From a virus, in IMG/VR virus record IMGVR_UViG_3300007345_000330, positions 1-21,720 of that record: 21,720 bases of DNA; one strand, 5' to 3'. The notes beneath the pieces are model-generated. The model searched no databases. It was not told the DNA's origin and worked only from the letters and a program-made list of their open reading frames with translations. Each line of letters starts with the position of its first letter. Position 1 is the first letter of the stretch. Positions 981 through 17,257 of the stretch are shown in pieces. A program made the position numbers and the translations under genes.

Positions 981-2348
981 TTATTCTCTTGTTATTGGAT
1001 TAATACTATTGATGATACTTTCTGCCTGTGCTCTTGATATTCCAAAAGAAACTATCAAGATTTCAATTGCAGATTCTTGTGATAATATTCCCTCTGCAAC
1101 TTTCTCTGCAACAGTTACCATTGATGTTACCTGTGCACCATTCAAGGCCTGTATTGCTCTTTCTTGCTCCTCCTTTTCAGTATAACCAAGAACATTTCTT
1201 GCCTCATTTGCATCAATTACTCCATTTTGCACCAAGCTAACAACGGTTGCAGATTCAGAGGCCTTATCACTTTGCAGTGCAGGTATATGTGAAAAGTCAG
1301 CCTTAAGATATACACCATCATCATACAGTCCTAATTGTTGGGAGATGGTTTCATACATTTGATTGGTTTCAGGTATAATGGTATCCTGATAACTCATTCT
1401 CATTCCCTCCTTAACATTGGTAAATGTAGCACCGTTGGATTGAGAGAACAAATAATAAGATAATCCATAAGCATCAATGATTGCCATTTTATCCTCTGTT
1501 AGCTCCTCAAATAACATTAGATCCTTTGTTGGATAAGACATTGGAGTCCAATCAACATCAGCCTCTGTCATTACAAGTTTATCTTTGCTACGTTTTAACC
1601 AATCCTTTTGTATTTCATCCCTTTCCTCTGGAGTCATTGGCAAAGCTCCTCCCATATCACTTTTTTTGGATGATAGGATTCCAATTGCTCCCATGTTTTC
1701 GAGTATCACATTCCTTTTGTTGTATTGGGCCATGATGTTACTCAAGGGATATTTAAGAGTATCAATTCGATTCACAGGATTAAGAAGATTGATTCCATCA
1801 GGAGTATTGAGATACACCATATCATCAACCTGTATGATTTCCATTTTTTCTGTATCATACCAGAATTGGAATTCCTTTATTAATCCATCCGTATCAATTT
1901 GATCCAAATACTTTCCAGTTCCAACAACCTTAATCTGATTTGATGGTAAAGGAATAAACAGATTCCGTATATCGAATGAACGTTTTGGACAATAGGCAAA
2001 AGAATTATTAAATAATCCATCATTAACAGCAAGTGAGAATACTACATCAGACCATGATTGGGTTGGATTAGGTTTATTGATGAGATCCAACATCCAATGA
2101 GATTCCACAGGATTGCCATCAAGATCACAAAGAACAGGAATACCACTTGACATCATAATGGCCCGTTTATTAATTACTGTTCTTAATTCAGGAATTTGGA
2201 TGTATAGTTCATATGGTTTATTTGTATCAATCCAAGTTGGTTTTGTATTTCCCCAAAATTGGTTGTGTTGACGAGTCAGCATCTTGATAAGGTTATCATT
2301 TTTACCACTTGTCCATCCGAATAAGTTAGTCCAAAAATTGTTTTGCAT
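981..2348 (-). CDS. phage portal protein (HK97 type)
   Basis: A protein of 455 aa, normal for HK97-type portals. It would form the dodecameric ring at the capsid vertex through which DNA enters and the tail attaches. Supporting marks in order: an N-terminal tryptophan-rich segment (FWTNLFGW), a clip/wing region with LINKPNPTQSW near residue 90, a central MTPEERDEIQKDWL helix, the YGLSYYLFSQSNGATFTNVKEG stretch followed by IIPETNQMYETI, and a helical C-terminal 'barrel' with SATVVSLVQNGVIDANEARNVLGY, typical of portal ends. The ATG is at the minus-strand 5' end after an A/T-rich leader. It is the only minus-strand gene here and is divergent from the protease and capsid genes. Its base use matches the main phage block, so it is not an obvious import. 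Confidence 0.9.
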   Translation of the reverse strand: MQNNFWTNLFGWTSGKNDNLIKMLTRQHNQFWGNTKPTWIDTNKPYELYIQIPELRTVINKRAIMMSSGIPVLCDLDGNPVESHWMLDLINKPNPTQSWSDVVFSLAVNDGLFNNSFAYCPKRSFDIRNLFIPLPSNQIKVVGTGKYLDQIDTDGLIKEFQFWYDTEKMEIIQVDDMVYLNTPDGINLLNPVNRIDTLKYPLSNIMAQYNKRNVILENMGAIGILSSKKSDMGGALPMTPEERDEIQKDWLKRSKDKLVMTEADVDWTPMSYPTKDLMLFEELTEDKMAIIDAYGLSYYLFSQSNGATFTNVKEGMRMSYQDTIIPETNQMYETISQQLGLYDDGVYLKADFSHIPALQSDKASESATVVSLVQNGVIDANEARNVLGYTEKEEQERAIQALNGAQVTSMVTVAEKVAEGILSQESAIEILIVSFGISRAQAESIINSINPITRE

Positions 2349-2433: not shown

Positions 2434-3501
2434 ATGGTTAATATAATGAAAAAGAATTTTAATCAATACTCAATTAAGTCATTCAATAACTCAATTAAGG
2501 ATATTTCATTGGGAAAAAGAGAGGTTGCAATGTACCTATCCAAATTCGATGTAATTGATTCAGATAATGATATGATTGTATCTGGAGCATTTGAAAAAAG
2601 CATAAAGGAAAGAGGCCCACAAAGCAACTCAAATAGAAACATTGCATTTTTGAGGTACCATGATTGGCAACATCCTATTGGTAAGTTCTTAAAGTTAGAG
2701 GAGGATCAAAAAGGATTATTTGCAGTTGCTAAGTTGAGCACATCAACAAAGGGAGAGGATGCATTGAGAGATTATGAGGAGGGAATAATCAAAGAGCATT
2801 CCATTGGATTCCAGTACATGAGTGATAATGTAAAGTGGATTGAGAATGGAGAAAAAGGATACTATCAGATTGATGAAGTTAAACTCTTTGAAGGATCAGC
2901 AGTTACATTTGGAGCAAACGAATATACAGAGGTTTTAAGCGTTGGAAAAAGTGAGGATAAGGTAACAGCATTGGAGAAACTTACAAAGGAAATTGACGTA
3001 GTAACAAAGGCATTAATAAATGGGAGAGGTACAGATGAGAGAATGTACAATCTTGAAATGAAATTAAAATACTTGAATTCTCGTTTAGTTGATCTTGCAA
3101 TAATGAAATCCATTGAGCCTAAGATGGAGGAAGTTCAGCAAATCAATATTAAACAGGATTTTGATTGGGCAAAAGTAGATTATCTATTGAGCACCAAACA
3201 AACATATGCAGACTATCCACAACAGGCAGTGAATAATGCAAAGAAAGGGATTGAGTTGAATGAGGCAGTTAATAACAGATGTGCAACAGATGTTGGAAAA
3301 CAGAGAGCACAGGACATTGCAAATAAAAGAGGATTGTCATTGGATGTTATTAAGCGTACATTTAGCTATCTTTCAAGAGCAGAGGAATACTACAATGCAG
3401 AAGATACAGAGGCGTGTGGTACAATTTCGTACTTGTTATGGGGAGGAAAAGCAATGAAAAGTTGGTGTGAGAAGAAGATAACAGAGATTGAAAACAGTTA
3501 A
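2434..3501 (+). CDS. prohead maturation protease with extra C-terminal domain
   Basis: A peptidase of the HK97 prohead protease (U35/gp4-like) family, expected to cleave the capsid delta domain and itself during head maturation. Residues about 20-170 carry the family marks: H76 in RYHDWQHPIG (catalytic His), S123 in EHSIGFQ (nucleophile), and LFEGSAVTFGAN (E153) after it. A linker with coiled-coil character follows. Residues about 245-355 form a separate helical domain ending CGTISYLLWGGKAMKSWCEKK. I have seen similar GT-x3-LLWGG tails on other phage head proteins, but cannot name it firmly. At 355 aa it is much longer than a bare protease. An in-frame ATG at 2446 is an equally good start. 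It is first in the + strand head operon, 15 bp before the capsid gene. Confidence 0.88.
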   Translation: MVNIMKKNFNQYSIKSFNNSIKDISLGKREVAMYLSKFDVIDSDNDMIVSGAFEKSIKERGPQSNSNRNIAFLRYHDWQHPIGKFLKLEEDQKGLFAVAKLSTSTKGEDALRDYEEGIIKEHSIGFQYMSDNVKWIENGEKGYYQIDEVKLFEGSAVTFGANEYTEVLSVGKSEDKVTALEKLTKEIDVVTKALINGRGTDERMYNLEMKLKYLNSRLVDLAIMKSIEPKMEEVQQINIKQDFDWAKVDYLLSTKQTYADYPQQAVNNAKKGIELNEAVNNRCATDVGKQRAQDIANKRGLSLDVIKRTFSYLSRAEEYYNAEDTEACGTISYLLWGGKAMKSWCEKKITEIENS

Positions 3502-3516
3502 TTAAATTATTAAAAA

Positions 3517-4743
3517 ATGGAAAATCCAAACATTACACCAGAGGAAATGGTGGCAAAATTTGAAGGTAAAATTGAGGAGGCAACAAAAGGATTAGTTTCT
3601 TCAGATGAAATGGCCCAATTAAAATCAGAATTGGCAGGAATCAAAGCATTAGCAGAAAAGGACAACACATCAGAGTTGAAGTCCAAATTTGTTGAGTTGG
3701 AATCTGCGGTATCTGGATTAAAGGAGGCATCAAAAAGCGTACCTGCAAAGGCAAAGTCATTAGTTGACTTAATTAAAGAAAAAGCAGAAAGAATCAATGA
3801 GGTTGTAAAATCTGGAAAGGGAAAAGTTGAGATTGCTTTAAAAGCACAACAGAATCCATCAGATATTGGTACTCGTGATGATTATGCAACTTTCTTAGAT
3901 GGTACTATCAAAAAGCCAGTTAGAGCAACAAGAATCATTGATCTTTTCAGACGAGTTGCTGTATCTACTGAATACGTAAAGTATAGAGAGCAGGATGTGG
4001 TAACAAGAGATGCATCAGTGGTAGTAGCTTGTGCAACATCAACAAGTAACACAAAGACAACTTGGGTTAATAGAACAGTTCAGATCCAAAAGATCAGAGA
4101 TTTCGTTGACATTTGTATCGATATGATTGATGATTATTCATTCGTTGCATCAGAGGTTGAGCAGTTGGTTAATGAATCTGTAAAACTTAAAGAGGAGGCA
4201 GAAATTTTACTTGGATCAGGTAATATCTTATCTATTGATGCGATTGCATCTGAATTTGATCCTGCAAACGTTCTTGCTCCATTCTCAGGTGCTTTTCAAT
4301 CTGCAACATTAGCAGAATTAACAGCATCAATGAAGGCCCAAATATATACTTTTGGACAAGAGAATGCATGGGATGCTGACACAATTGTAATGAACTACAA
4401 TGATTTTGTTAAGTTCATGCACCAGAAGAACAGTGAGGGAGATTACTTGTTACCTAATTTTGTTATGGCAGGAGATGGTATCTTAAATGGGATGAGAATT
4501 GTTACAAGCCCATTGGTAACTGCTAACACTTTATATGTATTTGATTCTACAAAAGGAGAGATCCTTGATAGACAAGGAGCAACATTGGAGATGAGCTACG
4601 AAAACAATGACAATTTTGAGCATGAGATTGTTACTATGAAAGTTGTTGAGAGATTACAATTCCACGTTGCACAAATCAATCAAGATGCATTCATGAAGTG
4701 TACTGATATTGCTACGGCATTAACTGCAATTACAGCACCTTAA
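3517..4743 (+). CDS. major capsid protein (HK97 fold) with delta domain
   Basis: 408 aa, the usual size for an HK97-type capsid precursor. Residues 1-105 are highly charged, coiled-coil helices (KFEGKIEEATKGLVSS, LKSKFVELESAVSGL), matching the delta/scaffold domain removed by the protease. The shell domain follows: an N-arm, then DLFRRVAVSTEYVKYRE, the long spine-helix region with EVEQLVNESVKLKEEAEILLGSG, and the A-domain near ANVLAPFSGAF and NDFVKFMHQKNSEGDYLLP. It ends with strand segments such as HEIVTMKVVERLQFHV. The cleavage site is probably between residues 100 and 115 (inference). The ATG follows TTAATTAAATTATTAAAAA, a Bacteroidetes-type leader without Shine-Dalgarno. It sits between protease and connector genes. 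Confidence 0.93.
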   Translation: MENPNITPEEMVAKFEGKIEEATKGLVSSDEMAQLKSELAGIKALAEKDNTSELKSKFVELESAVSGLKEASKSVPAKAKSLVDLIKEKAERINEVVKSGKGKVEIALKAQQNPSDIGTRDDYATFLDGTIKKPVRATRIIDLFRRVAVSTEYVKYREQDVVTRDASVVVACATSTSNTKTTWVNRTVQIQKIRDFVDICIDMIDDYSFVASEVEQLVNESVKLKEEAEILLGSGNILSIDAIASEFDPANVLAPFSGAFQSATLAELTASMKAQIYTFGQENAWDADTIVMNYNDFVKFMHQKNSEGDYLLPNFVMAGDGILNGMRIVTSPLVTANTLYVFDSTKGEILDRQGATLEMSYENNDNFEHEIVTMKVVERLQFHVAQINQDAFMKCTDIATALTAITAP

Positions 4744-4761
4744 TTTAAAGCGATTTAAGCC

Positions 4762-4983
4762 ATGAAAAAGATAAAATTAATAAGAGATTACGGTAATAGT
4801 AAGAAAGGAGCTGTTATTGAGGTAACAGAGCCACAGGCATACTTTTTATTAACTAATTCAATTGCAGTTTTATCTGATTGTGGTAAAGATTGCAAAGAGT
4901 GCGAAGATTGCAAAGGCAAGGCAAAGAAGAAGGCACCAGCTAAAAAAACGGTAAGAAAAACAAAGGCCTCTGCAAAGAAGTAG
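4762..4983 (+). CDS. small Cys-cluster, Lys-tailed protein after the capsid gene
   Basis: 73 aa. Residues 1-37 form a compact beta-like domain (MKKIKLIRDYGNSKKGAVIEV) resembling small proteins seen after capsid genes in Bacteroidetes phages. A cysteine cluster follows, C40-x3-C44-x2-C47-x2-C50, then a strongly basic tail of Lys/Ala/Thr (about 14 Lys or Arg in 22 residues). The tail suggests contact with DNA or with the acidic capsid interior; the cysteines could bind metal or form disulphides. Decoration, capsid-lining or connector roles are all possible. The stop codon sits in the loop of a strong hairpin (4962-4991). No Shine-Dalgarno; 18 bp after the capsid stop. Confidence 0.75.
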   Translation: MKKIKLIRDYGNSKKGAVIEVTEPQAYFLLTNSIAVLSDCGKDCKECEDCKGKAKKKAPAKKTVRKTKASAKK

Positions 4984-4991
4984 AGGCCTTT
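4962..4991 (+). terminator. perfect 10-bp hairpin spanning the stop codon, no U-tract
   Basis: AAAGGCCTCT (4962-4971) and AGAGGCCTTT (4982-4991) pair fully around a 10-base loop that includes most of the TAG stop. The next bases are ACTTGAAG, not a U-run, and the next gene starts 13 bp later. It may be a leaky terminator, a processing site or a 3' end protector of the capsid mRNA rather than a full stop. Confidence 0.55.
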
Positions 4992-5003
4992 ACTTGAAGA
5001 AAT

Positions 5004-5516
5004 ATGAGCATACTGAATATTACATATGATGATTTTGGAAAGGGTAAGTTTGAATTGCATCATGGGATGTACGAGCAAACAAAGATCCAGGCATACATTG
5101 ATAAATATGAACGGCAATACCTTGTTAAATTATTAGGAGTTGACTTGTTTAATTTATTTGTTGCGGATTTGGTTGCAGGAGTTCCACAGTCAGCAATTTA
5201 TCTTAAGATTTACAATCCATTTGAGTATGATAATGTGAATTGCTATGTCTATATTTCAGAGGGTATGATTGATATGATCAAAGGATTTGTTTATTATCAG
5301 TATTTAAAGGATTTGACAAATACGGTTGCTGTATCTGGAAATGTTCGTCCATTGGGAGAAAATTCAGAGAATGTATCCACATTAAATTCAATGATTTATA
5401 CTCGTTATAATGACAGTGTAAGGACTTACAAAACGATACAAAAGTATATTTGTGATTTCAACTCTGATTATTTACAGTATAATGGTATAGGAATTAGTAC
5501 AGCGTATTGGCTATGA
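5004..5516 (+). CDS. putative head-tail connector protein
   Basis: 170 aa, mostly helical, no membrane segment. The N-terminal pattern of an aromatic-rich helix (YIDKYERQYLVKLLGVDLFNLF) followed by a central helical segment (MIDMIKGFVYYQYLKDL) resembles the connector proteins placed directly after the capsid gene in Bacteroidetes phages, the counterpart of HK97 gp6. It would dock under the portal ring. Assignment rests on position, size and general pattern, not a diagnostic motif. Its stop overlaps the next start by 4 bp (ATGA), indicating translational coupling. Leader: TACTTGAAGAAAT. Confidence 0.6.
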   Translation: MSILNITYDDFGKGKFELHHGMYEQTKIQAYIDKYERQYLVKLLGVDLFNLFVADLVAGVPQSAIYLKIYNPFEYDNVNCYVYISEGMIDMIKGFVYYQYLKDLTNTVAVSGNVRPLGENSENVSTLNSMIYTRYNDSVRTYKTIQKYICDFNSDYLQYNGIGISTAYWL

Positions 5517-6190
5517 TTGAAGCAAGTGAGTACATAAAGGATTTAGTATCAGAGATTGATAACAGCTTAACAGGCACATATGATGCTGTGAGTGAGAAAA
5601 CCTTTGTATGTAACACTAAGTGGGCCAGAGTTGGAAAGATTGTTACTGATTCAATGGATAGGAGATTCAGGATCAGTGAAATCGGATACGATGAGTATAT
5701 CAAAGCAGATGCATTGGATGGAGGAGTATTGGAGGGAGTTTTTTATTTGAAAAATACTTTTTTCATTACAGGAACAAAATTGGCAACCAATACGGAGTGG
5801 ACTTTGGCAGATAGTAATTTGGAGAATAAATTACCTTTAGTATGGCTATTAGAGATAATAAGTGAAACAGGGTATGGAAAAGGATCAGCATTGGAGAAGG
5901 ATATTGATGTAAGATTATTCTTTTTAGATGAAACAGATCCAAGCCAGTATTACACAAAGGATCACAGAGAGCAGGTTGTTATACCTATGCAAAAGTTGAT
6001 GTTAGAATTCCTTGAGGTTGTAAACAATGATAGGATGTATCAAACAATAGAAAATTACCGTTATAGAACATTTTCCCGTTTTGGTGTAGAGCAGGAGAGT
6101 GGTGTTATTCAAAATGTCTTGGATGCAAACTTATCTGGAGTTGCATTGGAGCTTACACTATCCAGATATAAAGAAATTTGTAAATGTTAA
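5513..6190 (+). CDS. putative head completion or tail terminator protein
   Basis: 225 aa, starting at the ATG that overlaps the previous stop (ATGA); a TTG two codons earlier is less likely. The sequence reads as alpha/beta with LPLVWLLEIISE followed by a strand segment VRLFFLDETDP and then helices (VVIPMQKLMLEFLEVV). That arrangement, and the location between connector and tail-tube genes, fits tail-terminator or head-closure proteins that cap the tail tube where it meets the head. No catalytic motif is seen. It is 12 bp upstream of the tail-tube gene in the same operon. Confidence 0.5.
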   Translation: MIEASEYIKDLVSEIDNSLTGTYDAVSEKTFVCNTKWARVGKIVTDSMDRRFRISEIGYDEYIKADALDGGVLEGVFYLKNTFFITGTKLATNTEWTLADSNLENKLPLVWLLEIISETGYGKGSALEKDIDVRLFFLDETDPSQYYTKDHREQVVIPMQKLMLEFLEVVNNDRMYQTIENYRYRTFSRFGVEQESGVIQNVLDANLSGVALELTLSRYKEICKC

Positions 6191-6202
6191 AAATTAAAAA
6201 AA

Positions 6203-7111
6203 ATGATAGGATGTAATTGCGACGCAGGATTATCAAATACAGGGAGGCCAAATTGTGTGCCAATCTTTGGTATTACGTCAAGTTTTATTATGGTGCCATT
6301 GATTGCGAATGATGGTACAAGAAATGGAATCGACTTATCTACTACTCTTCCAACATGGAGTGATTTAGTAAATGAGGCAGATTCTTCTAAACGTTGGTTT
6401 CCATTACCCGCGTTTGAAAATGTAGAATTGCCAAAGGCAGACTCACAGTTTGAGGAGGCAAACAGTGGTAGAATGGTATTCTTAAGACAAGGAAAGAGAT
6501 CCTTTTCTGGAGAGTTATGGGCAGAGGATTCAACTCCAACATTCTTAGGAAAATTACAGGCAAATAGATGTGTTGACTTTGGAATGTACATTGTTGATGT
6601 AAATGGTAACTTAATTGGAAGTGAGGAAGGAGGATACTTGTATCCAATTCCTGTTGATAATCCAAGTTTTGATCCAAAATTTGCCTTTGCTACTGATTCA
6701 ACTACTCAAAAAATTATGTTAGGATTTGACTTTGACAGATTATTTGATGAGTCAACTATGTACATGATTAATGTTGAGGAGGCAGGACAAGATTTCACTA
6801 AATTGGAAGGATTGAAGGATGTAAACTTATTATCATTAGCTGTATCAACTACGGTTGCTACTTTCACTGCAAAGTTAGACTATGGAACAGCAGTTAATAA
6901 GATCCTTTACAAAGGAGCAACAGCAACAGCAGATTGGAGCATTGAGAATGTTACTCAATCAGTTACTTTTGCACCTGATTCTGTAACAGAGAATCCAGAT
7001 GGTACATACTCATTGGATTATTCAGTGGGAGGAACTGTATCAGGAGGAGATGTATTAAAGGTATCCGTTGCAAAGAATGGATATGAAGGTAATGCAACTG
7101 CAACAGCATGA
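6203..7111 (+). CDS. major tail tube protein with C-terminal Ig-like domain
   Basis: 302 aa. The N-terminus MIGCNCDAGLSNTGRPNC is characteristic of a tail-tube family in Bacteroidetes phages (recognised from memory). Residues about 20-200 are strand-rich and should form the tube domain that polymerises around the tape measure. Residues about 205-302 (from LLSLAVSTTVATFTAKLDYG, with DSVTENPDGTYSLDYSV) look like an added Ig/BIG-like surface domain, as seen on lambda gpV. No signal peptide. The leader is A-rich (TAAAAATTAAAAAAA). The stop overlaps the next ATG by one base. Confidence 0.78.
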   Translation: MIGCNCDAGLSNTGRPNCVPIFGITSSFIMVPLIANDGTRNGIDLSTTLPTWSDLVNEADSSKRWFPLPAFENVELPKADSQFEEANSGRMVFLRQGKRSFSGELWAEDSTPTFLGKLQANRCVDFGMYIVDVNGNLIGSEEGGYLYPIPVDNPSFDPKFAFATDSTTQKIMLGFDFDRLFDESTMYMINVEEAGQDFTKLEGLKDVNLLSLAVSTTVATFTAKLDYGTAVNKILYKGATATADWSIENVTQSVTFAPDSVTENPDGTYSLDYSVGGTVSGGDVLKVSVAKNGYEGNATATA

Positions 7112-7287
7112 TGGATATAGTGATTGGAAAATACTCGTTTAATGCTAATACACTGAAAAGCATATCAAAGGAAAAAGCTGTGAGCAGTTTTAAATCCATT
7201 GATAGCAAGATAGTGGAAAGGGCATGGAGTGAGGCAAATCCAAAAAAGGCCAAGAGAAGGCCTTCCAAGAAAACTAAACAACAGTAA
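7111..7287 (+). CDS. 58-aa Lys-tailed protein after the tail-tube gene
   Basis: A short gene starting at an ATG that shares its A with the tail-tube TGA (TGATG), so it is translationally coupled. The N-terminal 40 residues (MDIVIGKYSFNANTLKSISK, then IVERAWSEAN) look like a compact beta-alpha unit; residues 43-58 are almost all Lys/Arg/Ser/Gln. I cannot name it. Position suggests a small tail-assembly factor made with the tube protein. Composition matches the neighbours. A terminator hairpin starts 6 bp after its stop. Its layout mirrors the small Lys-tailed gene after the capsid gene. Confidence 0.65.
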   Translation: MDIVIGKYSFNANTLKSISKEKAVSSFKSIDSKIVERAWSEANPKKAKRRPSKKTKQQ

Positions 7288-7292
7288 TAAGG

Positions 7293-7317
7293 GGAGGTCA
7301 AAAGGCCTCCTTTTTTT
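7293..7317 (+). terminator. Rho-independent terminator inside the tail operon
   Basis: GGAGG and CCTCC pair around an eight-base loop (TCAAAAGG), followed by seven T. The next gene's ATG is only 13 bp downstream, leaving little room for a new promoter. The likely effect is partial termination, lowering expression of later tail genes relative to capsid and tube proteins. Confidence 0.7.
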
Positions 7318-7330
7318 ATAATCACACCGA

Positions 7331-7774
7331 ATGATTGGAAATACTGATATTGATATACACTTAAAAAAGGCAGTTTTATTGGATGATTCCATTGCATGGA
7401 TTGATGCACATAGTGATGAGGTCAAAGAGGAGATTTTGAATCTGATTAGAAATGAGCAATTAATGGAGGAGGGAGTTGATGCCAATGATGATATTATTGG
7501 TACTTACAGCTATTTAACAGAGGTATTATCAGGAGGAAGGAAAAGAATGGGAGATCCTTACAACTTGAATGATACTGGTGCCTTTTTTCGTTCCATGTTT
7601 ATCAAGGTTTTATCAGATAGCATACTCATTGATGCAGACAGTGCAAAGATGGAGGATCAGAATTGGTGGAGTGTTGACATATTAGGATTGACAGAGGAAA
7701 ATCTTGACATATATGCTACAATGGTTAAAGAAAATTTTATCCTTTACGCAAGGAGAGTATTGGAGCTCGATTGA
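7331..7774 (+). CDS. putative tail completion/morphogenesis protein
   Basis: 147 aa, soluble, mixed alpha/beta. The block YNLNDTGAFFRSMFIKVL followed by strand DSILIDAD and then VDILGLTEENL resembles a protein conserved next to tape-measure genes in Bacteroidetes phages, and vaguely the gp10-like virion-morphogenesis proteins whose DTG-aromatic-S motif sits before a beta strand. The likely role is tail completion or joining; this is inference. It follows a terminator by 13 bp, and its TGA lies 4 bp before the next ATG. Confidence 0.5.
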   Translation: MIGNTDIDIHLKKAVLLDDSIAWIDAHSDEVKEEILNLIRNEQLMEEGVDANDDIIGTYSYLTEVLSGGRKRMGDPYNLNDTGAFFRSMFIKVLSDSILIDADSAKMEDQNWWSVDILGLTEENLDIYATMVKENFILYARRVLELD

Positions 7775-7778
7775 TGAA

Positions 7779-8192
7779 ATGCCTTTATATAATTGGATTA
7801 GATGCAATGATGGAAAATTAGAATACACCAGAAAAGAGAAAAAAGGAAATAAGATCCAAGATGTATATAATTGGAAAAAGTTGTATAATGAATATTTAAA
7901 GGAATTCGGATTGGATGTGAGATACAAAAAGTATCTTGAAGCACAAAAAAAAAGAGCATTATTGCAAAGCGAATATGTAATAACCAAAGAAAGATTTAAA
8001 TTGACAGAGATTGAAATTGAGAGTCAAAAGATACAGGATTTGGAGATTCACTTTGCAGGAGGAAAAAAAATTGAGGTAATATTAACATGGTTAGGAATGT
8101 TTTTAGGCTACAAATTAGATCAAAAAACAACCACAGTAAAAGAGTATTTTGTAATATTAGAGGAATATGGCAAAGCAAATAAAAAGGTCTGA
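7779..8192 (+). CDS. putative tail assembly chaperone-position protein, 137 aa
   Basis: The start is taken at ATG 7779, just after the previous stop; a longer reading from 7704 would overlap the upstream gene by 71 bp and is disfavoured. Starts MPLYNWIRCNDGKLEYTRKE, then a Lys-rich helical stretch (YKKYLEAQKKRALLQ) and a last strand/helix segment. It sits between the tail-tube and tape-measure genes, where tail assembly chaperones (lambda gpG/gpGT) lie, and overlaps the tape-measure start by 26 bp. An A9 run at 7945-7953 is a possible slippery stretch, but neither alternative frame gives a useful extension. Function by position only. Confidence 0.5.
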   Translation: MPLYNWIRCNDGKLEYTRKEKKGNKIQDVYNWKKLYNEYLKEFGLDVRYKKYLEAQKKRALLQSEYVITKERFKLTEIEIESQKIQDLEIHFAGGKKIEVILTWLGMFLGYKLDQKTTTVKEYFVILEEYGKANKKV

Positions 8193-10260
8193 AATAGCAG
8201 AAGAGGATTTGTATAAAGATATACGGGATTCAGCAGAGAAAACAATTGTTAATATCAATGAGTTAAATGATTCATTGGCCCAGACTGCAACAGTAATTAA
8301 GACAGAGTTACAAAAACCTTTAAAAGTAACTATTGATGGTATTAATAGCGTGAATACATCCGTTAATGCCATGAATGAAACTATGGAGGCATCCATCAAA
8401 CTTGATAAGGCAAAGGCAGATGCAATCAAAACACAGATTGATGCAGAAACCAAGTTGGAGAAGTTGGAGCAGGAGAGAATCAAAACACAGATTCAGGAGA
8501 ATAAACTTGCACAAGAGGAAATCAAGTTAAAGGACAAACAGAACAAACAGGATAAGCAAAGCGAAAAGCAAAAACAGAAAAATGTTGCCTTAACAAGGGA
8601 GGAGATTAAAGAAAAATTAAGGAGCCAAAAGATAAGCCAAGCATTAAAAAAAGAGTTGCAAGATGAGTTGATATTGCAAGATGATAATGCAGGAACGTTG
8701 GAGAAATTAAGTGCAAAAAGTAGGCAGTTAAGAAGGGAAAGAGAAAAATTGAATCTGGAAACAGAGGAAGGAAGGAAGAGATTAAAGGAAATTAATGAGG
8801 AGTTGGATGATAACAATGAGGTTATCAGAGAGAATTCAGATGCCTTAAAAAAGCAAAAGTTAAACGTTGGTAATTATACAGAATCAATCCAAGAGGCCAC
8901 AGGAGAGATTGGAGGGATGATCAAAGGAATTAAGGATTCCATTGATGGTATAAAGGATCAAGCAAAGGCATTCATGATACAGGCCAAATCAGCAGATACA
9001 AGTGCAAAAAAGATTCGTTTAATTGGTAAAGCAATTAAGGCCTCTGGAATAGGAATATTGATTGCAATGTTAGGATCTGTTGTAAGTGCATTAGGAGATA
9101 CAAGAGCAGGAGTATTGGCAATGCAAGGAACAATGCAAAAGACACAGGCATTTATTACCATGATAGGAAATAAAATCATGGATACCTTTGAGAAAATAAA
9201 AATAAGAGTTCAACTTGCAATGTTGTCCCTTGATAAGTTTAAAATGGCATTAATGGATTTAACTATTCCATATACTAATGTAAAGCCATTTGAAGGATTG
9301 TTTGATATTGATACCGAAAAAACAAAAAAGGAAATTGGTGAGCTTGAAAACAGGTTAAATATATTATCAAAAAAGGAGTATAAATTAGGAGATATTGTTG
9401 AGAATATTGATAAAACTATCAAGAAGGGATTTGAATATGAGGATTTAATTGCCAGTTTAAGTGATAAAATTGAGAAGTTGAGAGGAGAGGAGGAGTTGTT
9501 AAGTGAACAGGCAGGAGATATGACATTATCTTTTGACAAACAAAGAAAAGCACAAAAAGAATATAATGATACAGTAGAGGAAAGAATTGGATTGGAAAAA
9601 GATTTGGCACTGGCAAATGTTGACTTACAAGCGTTGAAAATCAAGCAAAGATTAATTGATGCAGGAATGCAATATAATGATGAACAGATAAAAAATTTAG
9701 ACTTTTTAAAGGATGAGGAGGCAAGGATGATAATCAATAGTGATGAGCTTGCCCAATTATCAGATGCAAAAAGAGAGTTAATTGCCATTGATAATGAGTT
9801 AAATTCGGCACAGGCCAAAAATGCAATGGAGGCCCGAAATACTGCAAAGGATGACTTTGAGAAACAGTTAGATTATGCAATAGATGCCTTTGATATACAG
9901 AAAACCATCAATGAAAGGATTATCAATAACGAAAAAACAACATTAGCACAGAGAGATGCAATGACAGAGGAAACAAGAAGATTGGCGGATAGTGCATACG
10001 CTAATCAGGTTAAGTTGGTTCAAGATTATACAAAGCAAAGGATTGATTTTGACAAGCTGTTGAAGATGACAGATGAGGAGGAAATCAGAAGAACATTAAA
10101 AAAGTTTGATCTTAATGAAACAACCTTGACTCGAATTCTGGATATATTAAAAAACAGAAAAACTGTTGTTCAGGATTTAGCAGATATTGAGGATGAAACA
10201 GCAAAAAAGAGAATTGAAAACAATCAAGCCATAGCAGAAAGTATCCAGAATGAAGGATAA
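8167..10260 (+). CDS. tape measure protein, N-terminal part (ends at in-frame TAA)
   Basis: 697 aa before the stop. The ATG follows GAGGAAT and lies inside the end of the previous gene. Residues about 45-255 are very long, charged coiled coil (repeats of K, E, Q, with KLEKLEQERIKTQIQE). Residues about 285-320 form a hydrophobic segment (ASGIGILIAMLGSVVSAL), typical of tape measures that enter the host membrane, then more coiled coil. This protein sets tail length and helps DNA pass into the cell. The reading stops at TAA 10258-10260, but the same frame continues without another stop for 1,125 bp, ending in a recognisable tape-measure C-terminus. An intact gene would be 8167-11385, about 1,072 aa. 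Either the gene is broken, the base is an error, or two proteins are made. Confidence 0.85.
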   Translation: MAKQIKRSEIAEEDLYKDIRDSAEKTIVNINELNDSLAQTATVIKTELQKPLKVTIDGINSVNTSVNAMNETMEASIKLDKAKADAIKTQIDAETKLEKLEQERIKTQIQENKLAQEEIKLKDKQNKQDKQSEKQKQKNVALTREEIKEKLRSQKISQALKKELQDELILQDDNAGTLEKLSAKSRQLRREREKLNLETEEGRKRLKEINEELDDNNEVIRENSDALKKQKLNVGNYTESIQEATGEIGGMIKGIKDSIDGIKDQAKAFMIQAKSADTSAKKIRLIGKAIKASGIGILIAMLGSVVSALGDTRAGVLAMQGTMQKTQAFITMIGNKIMDTFEKIKIRVQLAMLSLDKFKMALMDLTIPYTNVKPFEGLFDIDTEKTKKEIGELENRLNILSKKEYKLGDIVENIDKTIKKGFEYEDLIASLSDKIEKLRGEEELLSEQAGDMTLSFDKQRKAQKEYNDTVEERIGLEKDLALANVDLQALKIKQRLIDAGMQYNDEQIKNLDFLKDEEARMIINSDELAQLSDAKRELIAIDNELNSAQAKNAMEARNTAKDDFEKQLDYAIDAFDIQKTINERIINNEKTTLAQRDAMTEETRRLADSAYANQVKLVQDYTKQRIDFDKLLKMTDEEEIRRTLKKFDLNETTLTRILDILKNRKTVVQDLADIEDETAKKRIENNQAIAESIQNEG

Positions 10261-10287
10261 GAAAATTTTGATTTCACAATAGAGTTG

Positions 10288-11385
10288 ATGGAGAAGGCCT
10301 TTGATGAGGAAAAAAAGTTAAGGGATAAGTCATTACAAGATGAGAAGGTAAAGGGAGCAGAATCAATTGATGAGTTAAAACAAAGATTGAATAAGATTAG
10401 AGATGAAAGAAAAAAACAGTTAATGATTCAAGCAAGTTTTGAGAGGTTGGAGATCCGTAATTCTATAATGGAGGAGGATCAAAAGGCACAGAAAATTGAG
10501 GAGATCAATAACAAGTTGCAGAATGACATTATCCGAATAGAAAACGAAACGACAGATAAAAAGAAGGAACTTGATGAGGAGGAGATACAAAATGAGGAGG
10601 ACAAGGCAGAGAAATTGGCAGACCTTGAACAGCAAAGAGCAGAGGACAGGATTGCAGTTGCACAGGCCTTAACAGATGCACATGATTTCTATGCGGATAG
10701 AAGAATTGCAAAGATTGATGAGGAGATTGAGGCAAGCCAAAAAAGATTTGATAATTTACAGGATCTTGCAAATCAAGGAAACATCCTTGCAAAGGAGAGC
10801 CTTGCAGAGGAAACCAAGTTAATTGCAGAGCAGACAAGAAAAAGAGAGCAGTTGGAAAAGAGAAAACAAAGAGTTCAATTTGCCAATACAGTCCTGCAAA
10901 CTTATATGAAAAATTCATCAGATCCAGATGTAAAAAAGCCATTGCAGAAAACAATCACAGATACAGTGTTACTAACTGAATTTATTAAGTCATTTTCATT
11001 CTTTGATGGAATAGAGGATACAGGTACACATGGACAGGGGATTGATGGCAGAGGAGGATTTCTATCCGTATTGCATCCTAATGAGAGAGTTGTTCCAAAG
11101 AAGAATAATGACATGATTGGTAATATGTCCAATGATGATCTGGCACAGTTAGCATATAACTATCAAAACGGCCTTTTAAGGGATGTAACAGATGGTGTAA
11201 CAGTATCAAACAGTGTGAGTGGAGTTGATGTACTTGCAAAAAAATTGGATAGTTTAGAGCGAACAATATCAAATAAGCCAGAGCACAACATTGAATTGGA
11301 GCAGATTATTGATGGAGCTATGGCAATAACAAGAAGAACTAAACAAGGAAATACAAAGATATTTAACAGATACAGAGTATCATGA
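10288..11385 (+). CDS. tape measure protein, C-terminal part (same frame, after the stop)
   Basis: 365 aa from the first ATG after the interrupting TAA; the frame is identical to the upstream tape-measure reading and is open from base 10261. Residues 1-205 continue the charged coiled coil. Residues about 235-275 hold FFDGIEDTGTHGQG and GRGGFLSVLHPNERVVPK, the Gly-rich 'F-x-G ... G-x-V/L-H-x-x-E-x-V-V-P-K' ending seen on Bacteroidetes tape measures. The last part is helix and short strand. The start codon has a weak A/G leader (AATAGAGTTG), so independent translation or reinitiation 27 bp after the TAA is possible but unproven. The stop overlaps the next gene's ATG by four bases. Confidence 0.75.
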   Translation: MEKAFDEEKKLRDKSLQDEKVKGAESIDELKQRLNKIRDERKKQLMIQASFERLEIRNSIMEEDQKAQKIEEINNKLQNDIIRIENETTDKKKELDEEEIQNEEDKAEKLADLEQQRAEDRIAVAQALTDAHDFYADRRIAKIDEEIEASQKRFDNLQDLANQGNILAKESLAEETKLIAEQTRKREQLEKRKQRVQFANTVLQTYMKNSSDPDVKKPLQKTITDTVLLTEFIKSFSFFDGIEDTGTHGQGIDGRGGFLSVLHPNERVVPKKNNDMIGNMSNDDLAQLAYNYQNGLLRDVTDGVTVSNSVSGVDVLAKKLDSLERTISNKPEHNIELEQIIDGAMAITRRTKQGNTKIFNRYRVS

Positions 11386-13085
11386 AGCATTTTTTAAATA
11401 ATATACCTATAAGTCCAAGAAATGTTTTGGAGATTGGATTGATTACTGATTACACAGGCAATCCAAATATGCTCCAGATTGATTCAGATACTGTTGTTCT
11501 TCCAAGAGAGGCAAGAGAAATCATCCTCAATCATATTGCAACACAAGGAGTATTTGAGGGAATTCCATACATGATCGAAACAGAATCAGGAATAAAATTG
11601 GAGTATTATGTTGATTTAACAGAGGGAACAACATACAAGGATTTTGAAATTGAGGTTAAGATCAAAAAAAGGAAAGGATTTGACAACTTTATAGAGAATT
11701 CGCAGGGCCTATCCTTTGAATTGATGAATAAAAAAGGAGTAAATTTTGATTTCATTGATATTCCTTATGTGATTATTCCAGATAATCAGTTAGAGTTGGG
11801 AGTGAGTCTATCTATTGCAATATATGTGATGACAAAAGAGGCCATCCAAGCAACAAAGGATCTTAATACGGCATTAAGGGATTTGATTGAGGCATTAACA
11901 GGTACTCCATTCCCTCCATTGGGAGAGATAATATCATTAAGTTTAGCATTGGCAGGGCAATTGGCATATACATTGGCAGTATATACAGCATTGATCAAGT
12001 TAGGGAGGCAAATGTTGGAGTTAATCTTTCCAAAAGTCAGAACTTATAAGGGAGCTACAATAAAAAACTTAATTGAAAAAGGATGTGAATATCTTGGATA
12101 TACGTTGGATTCAACATTATTAAATGAATGGGATAAATTAACCATTATGCCTGTGCCATTGATAAAGAATAAAAAAAGCATATTCAATTTTATACAAAAT
12201 GAGTTGAATTTTAGCTTTACAAAAGGGTATCCATCAGCACAGGATACGGTATCAACATTAGGAGAGTTGATTACAGCAGTTGAGATATGGTTTAATGCAA
12301 GAACAAAGGTGTATAATGGAGTTGTGCAGATAGAAAGGAGGGATTATTGGCAGAACATCACATCCAACACAACGGTGCCTGCATTAAATTTACAGGATAG
12401 CAGACAATCACAGTATGTTTTGAATACAGATGAGGCATGGAAAAGGAGTTATGTGCATTATCAAGTGGACTATTCAGATACACATACATTGGATTTCTTT
12501 GATCCTACGGATGCAGAATTCAGCACAGAGCCATTGAACGTTATTAATGAAGATTTAGTAAGTATTAGAGGCCTAAATGATATTAATATTCCTTTTGCAT
12601 TAGGAGTGAGAAAGGATAGGTTGAGTTGGGTTGAGGCATTTGCAAAAACTTTCTTTCAATTACTGGATACGGTAACAGGATTATTTGGAGCAGGATTAAA
12701 CAGTACAGCATTAATCACAAATAGATTAGGAGTAACACAGATTTCACAGCAGTATTATTCAGTTACAAAGGTATTGTATGCTACAAATGGGAAACAGAGT
12801 GCAGATTATGTGGATAAAATCAAGGCAGGAAATATATACAATGAGTATCATAAAATCAATGAGATTAATATAAATGGCTATAAGATATACAGTGATGTGC
12901 CTATGAGATTGAAATCAGAGGAATTTGTATCTTTACTTGATAACAATTTTGCGTATATTGATGGAATACTTTGTGAGATCCTATCCATAAGATATATTGA
13001 TGAGTTAAGCAAGGCAATAATATCATATAAGGAGCCATTTGAGTATGCAGAGGGGAAAGTGGAAATTATTACAATAAATGACTAA
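11382..13085 (+). CDS. tail tip / baseplate-like protein after tape measure
   Basis: 567 aa, coupled to the tape measure by an ATGA overlap. In long-tailed phages this place holds the distal-tail or hub protein. N-terminal residues 1-130 are strand-rich (ESGIKLEYYVDLTEGTTYKD). Residues 138-150 and 183-216 are strongly hydrophobic helices (ISLSLALAGQLAYTLAVY), unusual for a structural tail protein and suggestive of membrane contact during DNA injection. The rest is mixed, with VQIERRDYWQNIT and a strand-rich C-terminal third. I recognise it only as a conserved tail protein of Bacteroidetes phages. The hub reading is by position. Confidence 0.55.
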   Translation: MKHFLNNIPISPRNVLEIGLITDYTGNPNMLQIDSDTVVLPREAREIILNHIATQGVFEGIPYMIETESGIKLEYYVDLTEGTTYKDFEIEVKIKKRKGFDNFIENSQGLSFELMNKKGVNFDFIDIPYVIIPDNQLELGVSLSIAIYVMTKEAIQATKDLNTALRDLIEALTGTPFPPLGEIISLSLALAGQLAYTLAVYTALIKLGRQMLELIFPKVRTYKGATIKNLIEKGCEYLGYTLDSTLLNEWDKLTIMPVPLIKNKKSIFNFIQNELNFSFTKGYPSAQDTVSTLGELITAVEIWFNARTKVYNGVVQIERRDYWQNITSNTTVPALNLQDSRQSQYVLNTDEAWKRSYVHYQVDYSDTHTLDFFDPTDAEFSTEPLNVINEDLVSIRGLNDINIPFALGVRKDRLSWVEAFAKTFFQLLDTVTGLFGAGLNSTALITNRLGVTQISQQYYSVTKVLYATNGKQSADYVDKIKAGNIYNEYHKINEININGYKIYSDVPMRLKSEEFVSLLDNNFAYIDGILCEILSIRYIDELSKAIISYKEPFEYAEGKVEIITIND

Positions 13086-13087
13086 TT

Positions 13088-13300
13088 ATGGACTTTAAGA
13101 AGGAGTTTGATAATCTGGAAAATTTGAATAAACAGATGGAAGGTTTTAACAAGATGATTAATCAGGCATATTCAAAACTTGATCCAGAGTCATATGAGAA
13201 AGTTAAACAGCATCATATTGATACTAATGCCATGATTAGAGAATTCAGGAAGGGAAACACAAATGCTGTTGATAACTTAATAAATAAATATTTGAAATAA
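13088..13300 (+). CDS. small helical protein between tail genes, 70 aa
   Basis: Starts 2 bp after the previous stop and ends 1 bp before the next start, so it is a firm member of the tail operon. Almost entirely alpha-helical and charged (NLENLNKQMEGFNKMINQAY, then SYEKVKQHHIDTNAMIREF). No motif is recognised. It could be a tail-assembly cofactor or chaperone for the large protein that follows. Confidence 0.6.
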   Translation: MDFKKEFDNLENLNKQMEGFNKMINQAYSKLDPESYEKVKQHHIDTNAMIREFRKGNTNAVDNLINKYLK

Positions 13301-15625: not shown

Positions 15626-17257
15626 ATGGGAATAAAAATAAATCAGTATCCATTAGAAAGATTAACATTTGGCGATGACGATTACTACGACATTGACTAT
15701 TGGGATGGTGCAGGATACCAAACAGCGAAGATTAAAGGAAGTGTTATAAAAGCAGGGATTGAAGCAGGAGTTTTAACCATTTATGCCAATGACGGTACTT
15801 TATCGGGAAATAGGACTGTTAATTTAGACAGTTATTACCTTGCAATGCAAGGAGGGGAGGTAACATTTGGAGATTTTATGACGGTTATTTCCACAGATGC
15901 CTCAAGATATAGTTTAAGCCAATTCATAAGTAGCAATTCTCAACCTGTTTTGGTTGTTGGGAATCAACATGAAAATGTTGGAATCGGAACACACAATCCA
16001 AACACGTCTGCAAAATTGGAAATTATTAGTGATGACAAGGGTATTCTTATTCCAAGACTAACAACAACACAAAGGAATAATATTACATTAGGCGTAGGGG
16101 AGGAATCCTTATTGATATACAACACTACTACAAATCAGTTTGAGTATGTTGATTCATCATTAAATTGGGTTGCATTAGGAGGAGGCGGTGCGTCAATTTA
16201 TTCGTTGGACGGGACAATTGGAAGTGGAAGAATTGCTACTTTGACTGATACCGTAAGGTTTAAAGATGGTACTTTTGAAATACAAGGAGCTAATACATTA
16301 GGTACAGATACAGCTTTGGCAATCTATGACGGAGATTCAATACCAAATAAAAAGGTTGAATTTTTTAATAATGGAAATGTTGACATTAACGCAAATTGGA
16401 GAGCAAACGAAGGTACTATAAAACTTAACAGTAATAATCAGTCTTTTGTTGGTTTTGGATTAACTGATACAATTAACGGGTATTATGGTGGTTTCTTTTG
16501 GCGACCAACAACACAATACTTAACTATTGGTTCCAATACAGGAGGTTTTGCTATTGAGCACTCAGCAAATGTTCAATCATATATTTTTACATCTTCGAGC
16601 TTTACAAGTGAAAATGAATTAATAGTAAATGATAATTTTACATTAAACGGTAATCAAGAAATCAATGCGAATTGGGTTATAAGTAAAGGAACTCTTAACC
16701 TTAATTCCAACGACCAATCTTTTAACGGTATTGGATTAACTGATACAGTAACGGGATACATGGGATTCTTTGGTTATAGACCAACAAACGATTATTTAGT
16801 TATTGAGGCAACAAGTGCAGTAAGTGGTATTTCTTTTAATACAAGCGGAAGCATTGAAAGAGTTAAAATTACTGACAGCCAAACAACTATAAGTAATGAT
16901 TTAAACATGGACAACAACCGTATAAAAAATGCGGTTATTAATCCAAGTGTTCAAGAAACAGCATCAACAACATCATTCACAATAGATGCAGACAGTGAAA
17001 CAATGGGTGTTCTTACGGGAATGACACAAAATGTTAATATTGAAGCACCAACGGGAACTCCCGTTCAAGGTCAAAAGTTGATGTTAAGATTCAAGGATGA
17101 CGGAACAACAAGAAACTTTACATGGAATATTATTTGGAGAGCGATTGGTGTAACTTTACCAACAGCAACAACAGCTAATAAGACATTATATGTTGGAGCA
17201 GTTTACAACATCACTGATTCAAAGTGGGATGTTATTGCAGTAAAAGAAGAAGCATAA
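15626..17257 (+). CDS. tail fibre / receptor-binding protein, 543 aa
   Basis: The N-terminal 60 residues, with an Asp/Tyr-rich stretch (GDDDYYDIDYWDG), probably attach to the tail. Residues about 115-185 carry NVGIGTHNPNTSAKLEI, then PRLTTTQRNNI and LLIYNTTTNQFEYVDSS-W, a domain common to Bacteroidetes fibres and surface proteins. Residues 254-301 and 346-393 are two copies of one 48-residue beta unit (30 identical positions), 92 residues apart. The C-terminal 110 residues are strand-rich (QKLMLRFKDDGTTRNFTWN) and probably fold as a trimer head. It should bind the host surface. CpG content is far above the upstream tail genes, fitting exchange of host-range genes. Confidence 0.7.
   Translation: MGIKINQYPLERLTFGDDDYYDIDYWDGAGYQTAKIKGSVIKAGIEAGVLTIYANDGTLSGNRTVNLDSYYLAMQGGEVTFGDFMTVISTDASRYSLSQFISSNSQPVLVVGNQHENVGIGTHNPNTSAKLEIISDDKGILIPRLTTTQRNNITLGVGEESLLIYNTTTNQFEYVDSSLNWVALGGGGASIYSLDGTIGSGRIATLTDTVRFKDGTFEIQGANTLGTDTALAIYDGDSIPNKKVEFFNNGNVDINANWRANEGTIKLNSNNQSFVGFGLTDTINGYYGGFFWRPTTQYLTIGSNTGGFAIEHSANVQSYIFTSSSFTSENELIVNDNFTLNGNQEINANWVISKGTLNLNSNDQSFNGIGLTDTVTGYMGFFGYRPTNDYLVIEATSAVSGISFNTSGSIERVKITDSQTTISNDLNMDNNRIKNAVINPSVQETASTTSFTIDADSETMGVLTGMTQNVNIEAPTGTPVQGQKLMLRFKDDGTTRNFTWNIIWRAIGVTLPTATTANKTLYVGAVYNITDSKWDVIAVKEEA
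16385..16804 (+). repeat. diverged internal duplication in the fibre gene
   Basis: Copy 1 (16385-16528) and copy 2 (16661-16804) encode related 48-residue units with 30 identities, both starting INANW and sharing GLTDT and RPT. The DNA copies differ at many third positions, so the duplication is old and maintained at the protein level. Confidence 0.7.

Follow-up and report, generated by a model that had tools for sequence, protein, structure and literature searches.

Tail tape measure genes split into two coding sequences have been described in plasmid prophages of the Bacillus cereus group, where the authors suspected either a non-functional phage or a sequencing error (PMC8026635). Premature stops created by single bases are likewise among the differences that separate near-identical T5-like phages (PMC5816814). 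The locus discussed here lies in a 21,720-bp linear virus record, the whole stretch of DNA that was analysed (hereafter the window), in which an in-frame TAA interrupts a putative tail tape measure gene. As in the Bacillus cereus group, one ancestral tape measure gene is read as two CDSs (PMC8026635), but that example concerns other phages with plasmid-prophage features, whereas in the window a lone in-frame stop is the sole lesion found. With the T5-like phages it shares a stop created by one SNP while the rest of the phage genome is intact, although there the stops fall in a tail fibre gene and in genes of unknown function of isolates, and not in the tape measure gene (PMC5816814). A third comparison is offered by tape measure genes from other members of this uncultured phage family (IMG/VR: L004, L012, L014, L031, L034; the records L012 and L014 are also listed as L033 and L036, respectively). 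They are located between chaperone-like ORFs and a PHROG 12387 gene, are approximately 64-70% identical to the window gene over the full length and have the HPNERVVPK C-terminal stretch in common with it; unlike the window, all of them encode one uninterrupted ORF.

The first part of the interrupted gene (8167-10257, plus strand) comprises 697 codons from its ATG and aligns with residues 1 to ~680 of the intact 1056-residue L004 protein. The second part (10261-11385, plus strand) continues in the same frame for 374 codons (10261-11382) and ends at a TGA (11383-11385). An earlier sequence-only reading had described two open stretches in one frame with nothing but the TAA at 10258-10260 between them, and had placed the FFDG...HPNERVVPK C-terminal stretch in the second part only; coordinates and description are both correct. 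Over their entire length the two halves can be aligned with unbroken proteins of 1056, 1059 and 1072 aa in close relatives (64-70% identity), and an intact relative aligned across the TAA gives a single join that is gapless at the stop, so the window carries one interrupted gene and not two ORFs that happen to be adjacent.

The assignment of this gene as a tape measure is suggested by its size, its position and its predicted helix content. Positions 8167-11385 form the longest reading unit in the window, directly after the tail-assembly chaperone-like genes, and a structure model of L004 is almost wholly helical, with low confidence (mean pLDDT 55.9). Neither part matches a curated tape measure family in Pfam or PHROGs at an E value threshold of 0.001, nor does the intact L004 in PHROGs, and the second part found no match in cultured phages. 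The stop would fall inside a long predicted helix (residues 633-710 of the L004 model; pLDDT ~70 there, low overall) and not at an evident domain boundary.

The relatives of the gene are informative with regard to the origin of the stop. A search of viral contigs with the tape measure gene, the gene that follows it and the conserved protein encoded at 6203-7111 returned approximately 90 loci. Each of the closest tape measures (L004, L033, L036, L031 and L034) is encoded by a single ORF (1046-1072 aa) that is 63-73% identical to the window both before and after the TAA; for L004 the identity is 0.70 before the stop and 0.72 after it. An uninterrupted ORF was found in 29 of 29 distinct complete homologues with the C-terminal HPxExV motif, and further complete single ORFs with a variant of this motif are present in L084, L086 and L105, such that a split gene was encountered in none of the complete relatives. 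One locus (L059) was left aside as uninformative because of an unrelated-looking tail near the contig end. The tape measure of L036 (positions 9984-13196) is far more divergent ahead of the stop column than beyond it, a contrast suggestive of recombination inside that gene.

At the column of the TAA, where the alignment is gapless, the codon is CAA in L004, L033, L034 and L036 and CAG in L031, while CAA or GAA occupies this column in relatives further out; the stop itself is private to the window record. The sequence-only reading had proposed aligning related tape measures at this codon, and the alignment gives glutamine in all five of the closest. Its example of a GAA to TAA change finds no support in the window lineage, and a C-to-T transition in the glutamine codon is the shortest path to the TAA. 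An exact-site pattern search of other viral contigs recovered no near-identical record across the stop. A shorter record, L030 (IMG/VR 3300006404_000473), matches the window at 100% identity along its entire 5087 bp (window positions 2446-7532) and ends before the tape measure gene; the identity suggests that the window consensus is good elsewhere, and L030 may stem from the same sample.

The sequence-only reading had also put forward a single substitution as the cause of the interruption, and the uninterrupted relatives and the glutamine codon of the closest five bear this out. It is highly probable that a change of one base, private to this record, interrupts what was ancestrally a single gene, and that it is either a recent nonsense variant or an indistinguishable consensus error. 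On this reading, the window comes from an uncultured tailed phage whose virion module is intact apart from this gene. By descent the phage has one tape measure gene specifying one protein of ~1072 residues, and a single base sets it apart from the family, at a glutamine codon that is conserved elsewhere. The stop may be a very recent nonsense variant in the sampled phage, which probably leaves the tape measure truncated and non-functional in that genome, or a base miscalled in the metagenomic consensus. Both produce the same sequence, and their odds are roughly equal. A disabled tape measure is expected to be lethal to a lytic phage, and for that reason a nonsense stop that is real and common enough to reach the consensus would be odd. 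The change has the appearance of a common point mutation or a base-call error and not of a new way of making the protein, and the explanation needs no special translation mechanism. For annotation, the two ORFs should be treated as a single gene with an interruption rather than as two separate tail proteins.

The stop cannot be dated directly because synonymous sites are saturated in comparison with the relatives (pS 0.73-0.87). The 374 codons after the TAA contain no second stop, their identity to the relatives is as high as that of the codons before it, and the sequence 3' of the stop still looks to be under constraint. Changes private to the window are clustered right after the stop, where they affect 10 of the 29 columns that are invariant in the five close relatives; the same count made for each relative in turn gives 0-2 of 29-31 columns, and the best 29-column stretch has a permutation P of ~0.0004 against the five close relatives. 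Such a cluster counts against a fresh error, which would not predict one, but a control that re-estimated branch lengths for each stretch on a fixed tree topology does not confirm it. The window branch takes up 0.137 of the tree length in the post-stop patch versus 0.110 overall, and the patch ranks approximately 11th of 30 stretches; no outlier once scaled by local tree length, it gives no support to a local acceleration as the sign of an old split. Nor are the branch shares before and after the stop taken as relaxation: that of the window rises from 0.098 to 0.135, but those of L004, L033 and L031 rise too, largely owing to the strong divergence of L036 in the part before the stop. The idea that the sequence from the TAA to the ATG at 10468 is an untranslated spacer also failed, since in columns 712-744 the window departs at only two of the 17 positions at which four relatives are invariant, both times conservatively.

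These observations bear on the alternative that the gene now yields two proteins in this lineage, with termination-reinitiation at TTG 10285 or ATG 10288 (or at ATG 10423 or 10468) starting the second, and that both halves enter a working tail, which we regard as improbable. A restart at ATG 10288 had been suggested by the sequence-only reading; the ATG is indeed there, but the first possible restart codon 3' of the TAA is the TTG that precedes it (TTG ATG, 10285-10290, plus strand), and the ATG is private to the window, the three relatives compared having leucine codons in both columns (TTA or CTG, then TTA). The proximity of these start codons to the stop (24-27 nt) speaks for a restart, as do the scarcity of Met codons at 10288 and 10468, which nearly all aligned relatives lack, the cluster of private changes directly 3' of the stop, and a second part that is free of further stops and still similar to the relatives. 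Unsplit relatives nevertheless carry Met at 10423 (distant ones) or at 10288 (L041), so Met at these positions is no signature of a start; the contexts of 10285 and 10288 bear no particular similarity to the starts of the remaining window genes, which are A-rich; the cluster is unremarkable after scaling; and within the patch, variation is still lower at codon position 2 than at position 3. The gene is unsplit in every one of the 29 distinct complete relatives, and a split as an inherited, family-wide feature, another option raised earlier, is refuted because neither the stop nor the ATG at 10288 is conserved. A functional split would call into question the need for one continuous tape measure chain to set tail length, but nothing favours it here.

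Full-length tape measure could also be produced from the interrupted gene by readthrough of the stop or by nonsense suppression in the host, an option to which we attach a very low probability. The glutamine codon of the relatives is one change away from TAA, both parts are intact and in frame, and a suppressor in the host is conceivable. Against this, TAA is the usual terminator in the window, where it ends 18 of the 28 listed ORFs, i.e. 17 in addition to the interrupted one, and no other window gene has an internal in-frame TAA; recoding of TAA is very unlikely because it ends most other genes. A portal gene of one relative seemed to contain an internal TAA, but this TAA is the normal terminator of that gene and falls outside the aligned part. 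No tRNA gene, suppressor tRNAs included, was detected in the window, which is a fragment, or in any relative scanned, and a family-wide mechanism would place such stops in the relatives, where none is seen. A decaying prophage, a defective element in which the TAA would be accompanied by other lesions, is also very improbable. Degenerate prophages on plasmids of the Bacillus cereus group are reported to have split tape measure genes (PMC8026635), but the 21.7 kb of the window hold no second lesion: when the ORFs of five relatives were aligned back to it, no other premature stop or frameshift was apparent in real genes, flagged antisense ORFs and natural length differences at gene ends not being counted as lesions. 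Neither a tyrosine integrase nor a serine recombinase was found in the window and five related records, all of them fragments, and no related locus came out of two scans of genome contigs, which used the downstream tail protein (11382-13082) and the A2 alignment, respectively. The decaying prophage that the sequence-only reading had listed thus receives no support, and the private one-base interruption is still the preferred explanation.

The interrupted gene is embedded in a module that runs from the portal, prohead protease and major capsid protein through small head-tail genes, the conserved gene at 6203-7111 and the ORFs at 7331-7774 and 7704-8192 to the tape measure gene and further tail genes. 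The portal gene (981-2348, minus strand), for which only ~25% identity is reached in cultured phages, lies on the strand opposite to the protease (2434-3501, plus strand) and the other head genes, with a short divergent gap between portal and protease. Among relatives that have both genes, the two are divergent in 36 loci and on the same strand, the usual arrangement, in 11 (near-identical records counted); from these counts, a single-gene inversion or divergent operon marks a large subclade.

Immediately upstream of the tape measure gene, a tail protein of PHROG 6195 (7331-7774, plus strand), which by its position would be tail-assembly-chaperone-like, overlaps the tail ORF at 7704-8192 (plus strand). 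This overlapping pair, with a frame relation of +1 (or -2), is present in relatives too and may reflect a programmed frameshift of tail assembly chaperones. Downstream, the end of the tape measure gene overlaps by ATGA with a tail-module gene of unknown function (PHROG 12387; 11382-13085, plus strand) that is intact and conserved. The small protein encoded at 13088-13300 has 70 aa versus 78 in the relatives and ends eight codons sooner, just 5' of the ATG of the next gene. Finally, the likely tail-fibre-type gene at 15626-17257 is a mosaic, to which relatives match only over the first 60-75 residues and/or the C-terminal part (PHROG 3030).
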